Assembly (NCBI RefSeq): GCF_003967015.1
Contig: NZ_AP017560.1
Coordinates: 4,462,048 to 4,526,047 of the forward strand
Length of the DNA: 64,000 nucleotides
Direction: 5' to 3'
Origin: Pseudanabaena sp. ABRG5-3
GTDB taxonomy: Bacteria > Cyanobacteriota > Cyanobacteriia > Pseudanabaenales > Pseudanabaenaceae
Positions 14,788 to 19,990 of the stretch are shown here, piece after piece. The notes under the pieces are model-generated. The model worked only from the letters and a program-made list of their open reading frames with translations, ran no database searches and was not told the origin of the DNA. Each line of letters opens with the position of its first letter. The first letter of the stretch is position 1. The position numbers and the translations under genes are program-made.

Positions 14788-14844
14788 CAGAGACAGCACA
14801 AAATGCTGCCTCTGCCATTAGTGCTATGATCAAAACTCAGATTT

Positions 14845-14993
14845 CGGTTTTAGTGAAGAGCAGTCACTAAAAGTAATGGGGAAAGTTTGGTGCAAGTCCA
14901 ACGCTGTCCCGCAACTGTAATTTTTAGCCATAGCAATGTTTTACTGTAGCTAAATAAGTCAGAATGCCCGCCGAATCGCCACTACACATAAAT
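14845..14993 (+). promoter_or_regulatory. Cobalamin riboswitch
   Basis: The conserved core is readable: GGTGCAAGTCCAACGCTGTC, then CCGCAACTGTAA, and later AGTCAGAATGCCCGCC. These match the cobalamin aptamer consensus (GGTGxAAxTCCxxxGCxGxCCCGCxACTGT and AGTCAGxATxCCxGCC). The first gene downstream with a good ribosome-binding site begins at 15199. Boundaries are estimated by eye. A long palindrome at 15097-15144 sits between aptamer and gene and could act as expression platform. Confidence 0.88.
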
Positions 14994-15096
14994 CTACATC
15001 TACGAGGTCATAGATGATGAGTTCATATTTTTGCGAATGGGAAAAAAACTCCATTCTTCCTTGTCAATTACAACGATTTGCGCTCAAACCCAAACC

Positions 15097-15144
15097 AAGA
15101 AGAATTTTAAAAGCGTTGCTAAGCAACGCTTTTAAAATTCTTCT
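15097..15144. repeat. Perfect 24-bp palindrome in the riboswitch leader
   Basis: Arms start AAGAAGAATTTTAAAAGCGT and meet at GCTAAGC with no spare bases. Only a short T-rich tract (CTTCTTGTAGTTCTTTTG) follows, so terminator activity is uncertain. It lies between the aptamer and the ATG at 15199. Confidence 0.7.
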
Positions 15145-15198
15145 TGTAGTTCTTTTGCTCGGTAATTGCTGTAAATTTGCAGTCATGGAGGATTGGCA

Positions 15199-15660
15199 AT
15201 GAAGCTTAAGGATAGTGACTGGCAAGGAAATTTTGGCTATTGGCAAAAAAGCTTTATTCACAACCACCTCATGATGATTGGCTATACGGCATGGCATGGC
15301 TTTTTGCAATATGGTCGCGGCGTTGTGGTCTGTGATATTGATCGTCAAGCGATCGCACCTAGTAACACAGGTTTAGAAGTAACACAATTCAAATCTCAAT
15401 TCATCGCTGAGCAGGAATTAATTACCTCGATTCAAGCCTTTTCCCTCGATCAAGATTTAATCTCTATACTTGTGCAAGCAGTAGGAAACTATGTCCCCGA
15501 TCGCGAGATTGTTCTGCTGATGAAAATGGAAGAACATCTCGAAATTAATCTGTTTCAAAATCTCAAGATTTTTCCTCCTGACTGTTATGTTCAAGTCAGT
15601 CGTCGTTGGGAAGAGTTTCAGCCTTGCCTAGAAACCCAAACTAAAGGTTCTGCGATTTAA
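15199..15660 (+). CDS. Unknown protein under a cobalamin riboswitch
   Basis: A 153-residue soluble protein that I do not recognise. It starts MKLKDSDWQGNFGYW behind a GGAGGA ribosome-binding site. It contains HNHLMMIGYTAWHGFLQYGRGVVVCDID (residues 22-49) and a C-terminal VPDREIVLLMKMEEHLEINLFQN. No signal peptide, transmembrane helix or Cys cluster. The riboswitch makes it a candidate for a B12-related or B12-sparing role, but nothing in the sequence states which. A small ORF at 15014-15202 in the leader runs through the palindrome and is not considered real. Confidence 0.75.
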   Translation: MKLKDSDWQGNFGYWQKSFIHNHLMMIGYTAWHGFLQYGRGVVVCDIDRQAIAPSNTGLEVTQFKSQFIAEQELITSIQAFSLDQDLISILVQAVGNYVPDREIVLLMKMEEHLEINLFQNLKIFPPDCYVQVSRRWEEFQPCLETQTKGSAI

Positions 15661-15662
15661 TA

Positions 15663-15717
15663 AAGAAACCGATTTATTGTGGTGCGGCGAAGCCACGCCA
15701 CAATAAATCGGTTTCTT
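15663..15717. repeat. Palindrome after the riboswitch gene
   Basis: Arms AAGAAACCGATTTATTGTGG with a GCGGCGAAGCCACG centre, directly after the stop codon. No clean T-run. Confidence 0.6.
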
Positions 15718-15801: not shown

Positions 15802-16650
15802 ATGAATAATGTAATTCGCTACCAAAACGCTGCCCTCCAATATTACCGAGATCTGACAGGTTCTTCCTATCTTCACTATGGCTATTGGGAACCCATTCCA
15901 TCACCCACTGATGAGTTGACTGTTACCAAGCTCCGTGTCGCTCAAGAAGCCTATGCCACCCATCTTCTATCTTTTCTCCCTACCGATATTCATACCGTCT
16001 TAGATGTCGGTTGTGGTAATGGTGATAATGCTGTAGCAATGATTGAGAAGGGTTTGAAAGTTGAGGGATTAGCTCCCGATCCACTGCAACAAGCTAATTT
16101 CCTAGAACGCACCAATGGCAAAGCTTTATTCCATGTCGATACCTTCCAAGAATTTGTGCAAGCCCCTGCGAAGTATTCTTCACAGCTTACCTATGACTTA
16201 ATTCTATTTAGTGAAAGCACTCAATATATGTCACCAGAAATGATTGCCGATGGTTCGGCTGCGGTGACGAAATCTGGCAGTTATGTACTGTTAGCAGATA
16301 TGTTACGGAAAGATCCTGAATATAAGGAAGGAATGTTTTCCAACTGTCTGATTAATGCCGATCTGCATAAATCAATGGAGAATGCTGGATTTAAGTTAGT
16401 CAAGACTGATGATATTTCGGCACATATTGCCCCAACTCTAGATATTTGCGTGCAGAGCTTCCAAACCTTTGGAGTTTCGACAATGACATACATCGGTAAT
16501 CTGATCGCGATCGCCGTGCCACCAATTTATAAAGTTCTGAGCTACTTCTTCGGAAAGTCAATCAAGAAATTGATTACAGAAGGGCTTCAAGCATCATCCC
16601 TTTTCCATAAGCATCTCTGCTATGAAATCCAGCTTTGGCAAAAGATCTAA
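15802..16650 (+). CDS. Class I SAM-dependent methyltransferase
   Basis: A 282-residue methyltransferase. Motif I is VLDVGCGNGDNAVAM at about residue 70-84, followed by post-I acidic EGLAPDP and a YDLILFSESTQYMS segment near residue 133. The N-terminal HYGYWEP resembles small-molecule methyltransferases that open with HxGYW. The C-terminal third has a hydrophobic stretch (YIGNLIAIAVPPIYKVLSYFF) that could touch a membrane. The substrate is unknown. Confidence 0.85.
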   Translation: MNNVIRYQNAALQYYRDLTGSSYLHYGYWEPIPSPTDELTVTKLRVAQEAYATHLLSFLPTDIHTVLDVGCGNGDNAVAMIEKGLKVEGLAPDPLQQANFLERTNGKALFHVDTFQEFVQAPAKYSSQLTYDLILFSESTQYMSPEMIADGSAAVTKSGSYVLLADMLRKDPEYKEGMFSNCLINADLHKSMENAGFKLVKTDDISAHIAPTLDICVQSFQTFGVSTMTYIGNLIAIAVPPIYKVLSYFFGKSIKKLITEGLQASSLFHKHLCYEIQLWQKI

Positions 16651-16653
16651 TTG

Positions 16654-16686
16654 ATAATAATCGGGTGCTTTGCGCCCGATTATTAT
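16654..16686. terminator. Hairpin between methyltransferase and GST fragment
   Basis: Stem ATAATAATCGGG(T)GC with a TTTGC loop between convergent genes; likely bidirectional terminator. It overlaps the stop of the GST reading frame. Confidence 0.6.
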
Positions 16687-16907
16687 TTAATCAATTCTGC
16701 TAAAAAACTATTTCGCTTTTTTAGGAACTCATCTAGTAAATCGTAGTAATTCTCGGCAACAGCTTGCTGAACCGATGGTCTTTGCAATAGAGCTTCGCGC
16801 CAAGCATTAACCTTAGGAGTGCGATCGCTAAAGCCAAAATTTTGATAGCGATCGAAGGCGACGAAATAGCGAAAGATCGGTGCATAGACTGCATCAATCA
16901 GCGAAAA

Positions 16908-16916
16908 CTTTTCACC
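16908..16916. repeat. Target-site duplication, left (CTTTTCACC)
   Basis: The 9 bases CTTTTCACC flank the insertion sequence here and again at 18227-18235, identical in both copies. Confidence 0.95.
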
Positions 16917-18226
16917 CTGATTGACTGACAAAAGTAGAACTAGAAGTAGCGAGAAAGTATACAGAGAGTAGAATTGAGAAGAAAGAGGCGTATGCTGTTT
17001 TTATCAAAGAAAGAGCATAGGACAAATGCCCCAAAACGCCTCACGTATCTATAATGAACTAACAAAATTCGGGAGTCAATACAGTGACTGGTCAGATGTG
17101 CGCCATTTAGGAGTAATGGTGTGGATGATGGTGGGAATGATCGCCACAGGGAGTGTAAATTTAACAAAATGGCTAAGCCACATCAACACCAAAGCATTAA
17201 TCGCTCAAAGTACACAAAGGCAACTGTCAAGATGGCTAAATAATCCACGGATCAATCCCGCCAAGCTCTACAGTCCAGTGATTAAAGAGTTATTGTCAAA
17301 CTGGAAAGAGCAAGAAATCTATCTAAGTTTTGATACGAGCCAACTGTGGAAAGAATACTGCATAATTCGATTGTGTGTAGTGCATCGGGGAAGAGCCTTG
17401 CCCTTATGTTGGCGTGTTATCGAACATCGCAGTAGCAGTGTGGATATGAGTAGCTATCGGGACATGTTTCAACGTGCATCAAAACTGTTACCCGTGAATG
17501 TCAAAGTAATTTTATTAGCTGACCGAGGATTTGCTAATCCAGAATTGGTGCGCTATGTAAGTGAATTAAAGTGGCAATGTCGGATTAGGATCAAAGGGAA
17601 TTTCTGGATACATCACCCCAAGAATCGCTGGCAAACTGTCAACCAATTACATCTTCGTCTTGGTGAAGCCAAGTTGCTCCACAATGTCCAAGTCCATAAA
17701 ACTGAGTCCAAGCGTCTTACCAATATGCATATTGCGGCGGCTTGGGAATCCCATAGCCGAGAGCATTGGTATATTCTCAGCACTGAACCCACATCAATCC
17801 AGACTTTTTGGGAGTATGGTCTCAGATTCGATATTGAGGAGAATTTCTTGGATGACAAATCCAATGGCTTTGACTTGGAATCTTCGCGTTTACGTTCGGC
17901 TCCTGCTATTTCCCGCCTTTGTTTCGTTGTTGCCATGACCACTTTGTTTTTGACTGCTCAAGGGCTAGCAGTTGCCAATTCTGGCTTTCGTCGTTTGGTT
18001 GATCCTCATTGGTTTCGTGGGCTTAGTTATCTCAAGATTGGCTGGAACTGGATTCACTCAGCTCTTACGAAAAACTGGGCTTTCTTCCCTTCTTACTCTT
18101 TTACTTCTTATCTGGACTCCGATCCTGCTATTGCTTCTCGTCCAAAACATTGTCAGAAGAGCTTTCGTATTGAGTTCTATGTTTCTACTCTCGACTGTAC
18201 TTCCTAGACTTTTGTCAGTCAATCAG
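16917..18226 (+). mobile_element. IS4-like insertion sequence, 1310 bp
   Basis: Perfect 19-bp terminal inverted repeats (CTGATTGACTGACAAAAGT at 16917-16935 and its complement at 18208-18226) enclose one transposase gene and are flanked by the 9-bp duplication CTTTTCACC. Perfect ends, perfect duplication and an intact transposase indicate a recent insertion. Confidence 0.93.
17026..18207 (+). CDS. IS4-family DDE transposase
   Basis: A 393-residue transposase. Acidic residues in DDE-like positions are visible in LSFDTSQLW (near residue 105), ILLADRGFANPELV (near 167) and the C-terminal DIEENFLDDKSNGFDLESS (near 275), with the spacing and the E-x-x-F-x-D-x-K-S pattern of IS4-type enzymes. It fills the insertion sequence. 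The reading frame is intact, so the element may still be active. Confidence 0.9.
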   Translation: MPQNASRIYNELTKFGSQYSDWSDVRHLGVMVWMMVGMIATGSVNLTKWLSHINTKALIAQSTQRQLSRWLNNPRINPAKLYSPVIKELLSNWKEQEIYLSFDTSQLWKEYCIIRLCVVHRGRALPLCWRVIEHRSSSVDMSSYRDMFQRASKLLPVNVKVILLADRGFANPELVRYVSELKWQCRIRIKGNFWIHHPKNRWQTVNQLHLRLGEAKLLHNVQVHKTESKRLTNMHIAAAWESHSREHWYILSTEPTSIQTFWEYGLRFDIEENFLDDKSNGFDLESSRLRSAPAISRLCFVVAMTTLFLTAQGLAVANSGFRRLVDPHWFRGLSYLKIGWNWIHSALTKNWAFFPSYSFTSYLDSDPAIASRPKHCQKSFRIEFYVSTLDCTS

Positions 18227-18235
18227 CTTTTCACC
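18227..18235. repeat. Target-site duplication, right (CTTTTCACC)
   Basis: Second identical copy of the 9-bp duplication at 16908-16916. Confidence 0.95.
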
Positions 18236-18697
18236 AGCAAAAAATGGGACTGCATCAAGTTGTGCTTCTAGTAGTTCTAAATTTGCAATTAAATCTAAAC
18301 GTTTAGCCTCAAAGGTTTCTTGATCCTTAGCCGCATAGAAACCCGCAATTTTTGTCAGTAGATTTGAGCCAAATTCGATCCAAGAGCGATGTTTGGCTTT
18401 TGTTAAAGCATCTGGTGGATGTAGCGAGTCTGGGGTGATTTCATCGAGATATTCACAAATTACTGCCGATTCAAATAGTACTTCGCCATCGACTAGCAGC
18501 AAAGGAACTCTGCCCAATGGTGAAATTTTGAGAAACCAGTCGGGTTTATTGGCAAGGTCAATGTATTCGCGATCGTAAGGAATTTGCTTTTCAAGGACGG
18601 TGATCAGCGATCGCTGCACGTAGGGACAGAGGGTATGGCTGATTAGCTTGAGTTTAGGCAACATGGCAATTTGTAAGTGTAGCTAATATTTGGAGAT

Positions 18698-19503: not shown

Positions 19504-19713
19504 CTATAGATTTCCCAACAACCAAATCAATCCATGCCCCGTTGCAGCTTCAGTAATTAGGAGGGAGACAAAACCAATCATGGCAAGTCTACCGTTTAGT
19601 AATTCCGCATAAGGTGTAAAACCAGCTTTTTCAGTATCATCAACATACATCTTTGGTTCAATTGCGAAGTTGTTGAGTACACCGCGTTCATCAACTCTGT
19701 AGCTATTAGTCAT
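19504..19713 (-). CDS. High-light-inducible protein (Hlip/SCP), copy 1
   Basis: A 69-residue single-helix chlorophyll a/b-binding-like protein. The membrane helix carries the Hlip signature [20 protein letters not shown] (E-x-x-N-G-R-x-A-M-I-G), whose Glu, Asn and Arg bind chlorophyll and pair helices in dimers. The N-terminal [21 protein letters not shown] faces the stroma. The protein is identical to the neighbour at 19781. Such proteins protect photosystem II assembly under high light. Confidence 0.93.
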
Positions 19714-19780: not shown

Positions 19781-19990
19781 TTATAGATTCCCCAGTAACC
19801 AAATCAATCCATGCCCCGTTGCAGCTTCAGTAATAAGGAGCGAGACAAAACCAATCATGGCAAGTCTACCGTTTAGTAATTCCGCATAAGGTGTAAAACC
19901 AGCTTTCTCAGTATCATCAACATACATCTTTGGTTCAATTGCGAAGTTGTTGAGTACGCCGCGTTCATCGACTCTGTAACTGTTAGTCAT
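19781..19990 (-). CDS. High-light-inducible protein (Hlip/SCP), copy 2
   Basis: Same 69-residue protein as the gene at 19504. About a dozen nucleotide differences separate the two genes and none changes an amino acid. The duplicated unit is about 277 bases and includes downstream flank (a TTTTACTTTGTCT box occurs after both). It is the upstream member, so it lies next to the probable shared promoter. Ribosome-binding site AGAGG precedes the ATG. Confidence 0.93.

Follow-up and report, generated by a model that had tools for sequence, protein, structure and literature searches.

A cobalamin-riboswitch-linked protein family of the CcmS superfamily in cyanobacteria

CcmS (Slr1911, All1292; PDB 9iur, 8zlh), an assembly chaperone of the beta-carboxysome, is a dimer that binds the tail of CcmK1 (PMC11635287). 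Cobalamin riboswitches have been described in Anabaena sp. PCC 7120, where the operon concerned is strongly raised under cobalt starvation (PMC10878165), and in Mycobacterium tuberculosis, where they act together with upstream ORFs (uORFs) before metE and ppe2, in the case of ppe2 by termination-reinitiation (PMC11260477). According to the RegPrecise survey, a cyanobacterial genome has on average only 11 genes under RNA regulation.

In the locus studied here, part of a 64-kb stretch of Pseudanabaena sp. ABRG5-3 DNA (the window), a cobalamin riboswitch and a predicted short ORF stand upstream of the gene for a 153-residue protein, called X hereafter (positions 15199..15657, + strand; stop codon 15658-15660). 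Homology and fold assign it to the CcmS superfamily, and riboswitch linkage to the B12 regulon. The riboswitch is of the cyanobacterial cobalamin type, as is that of the alr4027-btuB2 operon of Anabaena sp. PCC 7120 (PMC10878165), but the latter operon serves B12 uptake and X is unmentioned there. As in M. tuberculosis, a riboswitch and a short ORF are found jointly upstream of a gene, the ORF being translated there and predicted here; the bacteria are unrelated, the riboswitch variants are different, and the cyanobacterial case is only a predicted one. In the literature that we searched, which leaves the supplementary regulon tables of RegPrecise outside its coverage, X is neither described nor placed in any B12 regulon, and we found no experiment on it.

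RF00174 is the sole RNA family above threshold in the window (cmscan). The match is full length (model positions 1-189; 14828..14989, + strand) and scores 55.5 bits (E 4.4e-11) against a gathering cut-off of 31.5 bits. This bears out the strong aptamer core claimed in an earlier sequence-only reading, which had named a poor covariance-model score as its refutation. The same reading had placed the start of the aptamer at 14845, about 17 nt too far downstream, and had given the gap to the gene as 110 bases; the actual distance from aptamer to ATG is 209 nt. The window genome (5.66 Mb; its near relatives carry the names Pseudanabaena or Phormidium) contains only one other RF00174 riboswitch, scoring 36.7 bits (locus L002). 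Behind it stand the genes for a HupE-like membrane protein and then for a CobW-like protein, a pair that likely serves cobalt uptake.

The aptamer is followed by a P13-like hairpin, CATCTA-CGAGGTCA-TAGATG (14997..15016, + strand), seen in the sequence and in the centroid fold, with GAGG (15004-15007) in its loop and an ATG (15014-15016) in its 3' arm. A CGAGG-containing stem-loop comes after nearly all of the 88 riboswitches examined; its stem varies in sequence with pairing kept (CATCTA/TAGATG, CATCTG/CAGATG, TCATCTG/TGGATGA), and most of the 88 have an ATG 9-12 nt downstream from where GAGG starts. With GAGG in the loop of the post-aptamer hairpin, the expression platform is able to hide a ribosome-binding site, and ligand binding would do so within the P13-like hairpin. 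A full-length aptamer above the gathering score and a Shine-Dalgarno in a downstream hairpin loop are features that the locus shares with RF00174 riboswitches having a translational platform. It differs from them in that X is no known target, and in the leader ORF and the repeat that lie between hairpin and gene.

In ten relatives, the hairpin ATG aligns with the start codon of X itself, and the gap between aptamer and gene is 28 nt in most relatives, against 209 nt in the window. Here and in two relatives, L004 and L005, X has been displaced downstream by an insertion, and the hairpin ATG opens a leader ORF. The latter has 30 codons in L004 and L005, where it runs a few bases beyond the start of X. 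In the window it reaches 62 codons after a second insertion, a 107-bp repeat; this predicted ORF (15014..15202, + strand) is taken from the ORF list and from the alignment to relatives whose same ATG starts X, and its stop TGA overlaps the start of X as ATGA. Leader ORFs of differing length are found behind most of these riboswitches, and the one in eight Microcoleus-type loci has 37 codons and stops 5 nt short of X. We saw no coding constraint on the leader peptides, the variable columns being spread about evenly over the codon positions. Translation of the leader ORF is therefore not proven; if it is translated, the act of translation itself would be what counts. As X has in the window a Shine-Dalgarno-like site of its own (GGAGGA, 15187..15192, + strand), retained in L004, its translational coupling to the leader ORF is not forced.

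By analogy with other cobalamin riboswitches, one in Anabaena included, B12 would switch X off. Plentiful (pseudo)cobalamin would bind the aptamer and conceal the Shine-Dalgarno in the P13-like loop, turning translation off, and a shortage of B12 or cobalt would open the ribosome-binding site. In the window strain, the opened site may drive the 62-codon leader ORF, with ribosomes that finish at ATGA restarting on X.

The sequence-only reading had described a perfect palindrome in the gap and counted it as part of the riboswitch-gene arrangement. A palindrome is present, inside the leader ORF (15068..15174, neither strand assigned), but its 53-nt arms (15068-15120 and 15122-15174) are 77% complementary overall and only its core is near-perfect. 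It is a copy of the 107-bp repeat, which has at least 62 matches in the window genome, 18-71 matches in each of the 12 other genus genomes searched and none in the seven genomes searched outside the genus; at this site, alignment shows it to be missing in the nearest relative, L004. Being a genus-specific dispersed repeat that was inserted here, the palindrome is therefore unrelated to the riboswitch, and a role as terminator or riboswitch arm is ruled out; a terminator scan flags it merely on account of its strong stem. The repeat has the ends TTACA/TGTAA and may be a non-autonomous mobile element. A second palindrome (15663-15717; 26-nt arms, 92%) lies between X and the methyltransferase gene behind it.

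Pfam contains no match to X (E<=1), and the sole NCBIfam match, with 13.6 of 445 bits, is meaningless. The earlier suspicion of an unrecognised gene therefore holds. Since X matches neither a Pfam nor an NCBIfam family above threshold, it agrees with the description given of it as no known B12 transporter, cobalt transporter or isozyme; the B12-independent isozymes looked for include MetE and class I RNR.

CcmS is the sole meaningful fold match of two AlphaFold models (pLDDT 78 and 80), with Foldseek E-values of 4.9e-7 and 2.1e-6. One model superposes on CcmS 9iur with a VIA Z of 9.6 over 121 residues (rmsd 4.5 Å) and the other on CcmS with a Z of 9.3 over 115 residues (3.4 Å), the next-best chain reaching a Z of 4.7. 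X is thus predicted from these models to adopt the CcmS fold. Profile-profile comparison by hhalign relates X to CcmS with a probability of 96.2% and E 2.6e-9. Genome searches give weak matches in both directions, and in three genomes X genes were retrieved with a CcmS query (E 2e-5 to 5e-4). In a single-profile sequence search of the PDB, the X alignment finds CcmS first, at E 0.17; another, diverse X alignment retrieved nothing relevant from the PDB. Homology to the CcmS superfamily is detectable, and X has in common with CcmS its fold, its size and the positions of W, F and P-x-C.

X is not, however, an orthologue of CcmS. In a tree whose CcmS rows were confirmed against All1292 and Slr1911, CcmS, X and X' separate into one group each; the group of CcmS rows has a support of 100/100 and includes none of the 54 X rows. 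The contacts of CcmS with the CcmK1 C-terminus are D51, Q53, H57, F58, Y60, D126 and E130, numbered by the solved structure. Most of them appear not to be kept in X: in the hhalign alignment, which is gapped in this region, only F58 has a near-invariant counterpart (F68), and the positions of D51, H57 and D126 vary. Nearly invariant in X are C45 and C129 (P-x-x-C-Y motif). X also differs from CcmS in its B12 riboswitch control and in its neighbours. We conclude from the fold and profile comparison that X belongs to the CcmS superfamily as a different family, in a clade of its own with an apparently diverged contact surface. By analogy with CcmS, X may bind a peptide or a partner.

Homologues of X, gathered by protein similarity alone, are present in 23 of 58 related genomes. 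Each of the 13 close homologues, that of the window among them (71-100% identity), has RF00174 upstream, and in seven distant homologues, at about 32-39% identity, the riboswitch immediately precedes X; in others, operon genes intervene and it is found 1.5-3 kb upstream. A scan of GTDB genomes gave 80 named X loci, in which the riboswitch was sought with a covariance model built in this analysis. A same-strand upstream cobalamin riboswitch was found in 76 of them. The remaining four (L115, L124, L173, L184) lie on contigs that break off a short way from X, three of them inside or directly before a metE or cobW reading frame. No riboswitch was seen in the nine CcmS loci examined as the nearest outgroup, nor near the methyltransferase in seven related genomes that have this gene without X; the switch therefore follows X. 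The proposal of a new member of the cyanobacterial B12 regulon is supported by these counts, and the homologues without a riboswitch anywhere, which the sequence-only reading had said would overturn it, are not what the scan returned. Exceptions do occur among more remote genes. The 2.5-Mb genome G332 carries X-like genes in L199 (2069-3533) and L200 without an upstream riboswitch, the one in L199 adjoining a desaturase and a LysR gene. Another contig of the window genome (G000:C3, L197 2317-2850) encodes a 177-aa protein weakly similar to X (24.6 bits over profile positions 14-56), also with no riboswitch.

X is linked to metE, cobW, DUF1636, TonB receptors, fatty-acid desaturases (FA_desaturase), SAM methyltransferases of two types, CMAS-type cyclopropane synthases, UbiH-type FAD hydroxylases and a CbiO-like ATPase, and tandem pairs of X and X' are common. 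In 10 loci X adjoins metE, with an exact 17-nt overlap in seven; in L064 its neighbour is a gene with an RNR barrel domain. Plasmids of Picosynechococcus PCC 73109 and PCC 7117 carry metE, X and a desaturase in this order under a riboswitch, with X annotated as a hypothetical protein. Unlike these operons, the genus of the window has no MetE, and MetH is present; X is therefore not for MetE here. Class II RNR (NrdJ), a candidate B12 client, has no match in the window genome.

Behind X, the window encodes a SAM-dependent methyltransferase of 282 aa (15802..16650, + strand; Pfam Methyltransf_23, 6.8e-8). Across the 80 loci there are 32 places where a methyltransferase of the short type comes directly after X, most often at a distance of 18-19 nt. 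Within the genus, close-type X and the methyltransferase are only weakly co-occurring (9 genomes with both, 4 with X only, 4 with the methyltransferase only, 9 with neither). Two gene sets recur in B12-riboswitch operons (L121, L172, L212 and others): a desaturase with a 334-aa methyltransferase and a UbiH-type hydroxylase or, alternatively, a desaturase with a CMAS cyclopropane synthase. With these sets, the B12 regulon has a lipid or quinone branch that is as yet unexplained.

We propose that X, probably a small dimer like CcmS, would act as a peptide-binding adaptor or assembly chaperone. Its clients would be enzymes produced under B12 shortage: in other organisms MetE among others, in the window strain perhaps the methyltransferase. 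Taken whole, a B12-repressed adaptor or chaperone of the CcmS superfamily, made when B12 is short, is our best explanation, and we rate its chances as somewhat better than even. The neighbours of X are very varied, which makes it difficult to single out one client; we know of only one client studied for CcmS. X might instead be an enzyme or a binder of small molecules (corrinoid or metal, for example) in B12 or cobalt salvage. The cobW, DUF1636, TonB receptor and CbiO-like ATPase genes among its neighbours would fit such a protein, as would the two nearly invariant cysteines; yet residues that would form a conserved catalytic or metal-ligand set are not obvious, and the fold matches CcmS alone, a peptide binder. 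We consider a salvage function unlikely. That X is simply the carboxysome chaperone of lineages without canonical CcmS, such as Pseudanabaena, is very improbable: a CcmS query finds no canonical CcmS in the window genome and the two proteins have their fold in common, but G056 carries both, about half of the genus is without this X, X forms a separate clade, and B12 control would be odd for a shell-assembly factor.

Two further alternatives concern the riboswitch itself. It could serve the methyltransferase at 15802, with X as a bystander, as the presence of this gene behind X in many loci would allow; but the riboswitch accompanies X also where there is no methyltransferase, and is missing near methyltransferase genes that occur without X, which largely refutes the idea and leaves it with hardly any probability. 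It is also conceivable, but in our view unlikely, that the repeat insertion uncoupled X from the riboswitch in this strain and made its expression B12-independent. The lengthened gap and the very stable hairpin between aptamer and gene speak for this; against it, the aptamer and the P13-like hairpin are intact, and the leader frame has stayed open through two insertions, ending exactly at the ATGA of X. We tentatively envisage, as a possibility we would not yet favour, a cyanobacterial B12-deficiency response organised around a dedicated family of riboswitch-controlled chaperones or adaptors with the CcmS fold, often encoded as an adjacent pair. They would assemble or regulate the enzymes that serve as replacements (MetE, RNR, lipid and quinone methyltransferases), and translated leader ORFs would relay the B12 sensing.

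X represents an unnamed family within the CcmS superfamily that recurs in linkage with B12 riboswitches, a larger finding than first stated. Because of its place in B12-controlled operons and its kinship with CcmS, it marks an unstudied part of the cyanobacterial response to B12 shortage. It is common to B12 operons of very different enzyme content, the annotations that we encountered being hypothetical protein only, and it connects metE, nucleotide reduction, desaturases and methyltransferases with B12 status in a group of central ecological importance. Its relationship also suggests that the CcmS fold is not confined to carboxysomes. The leader-ORF arrangement offers a simple test case for riboswitch-to-uORF control outside mycobacteria.

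Elsewhere in the window, a glutathione S-transferase-like gene (16683-18664) looks split by a transposase-like ORF (17026-18207); it is intact in L077 (5936-6598). Further downstream, two identical tandem ORFs of 69 aa on the minus strand (19504-19713 and 19781-19990) resemble high-light-inducible proteins.
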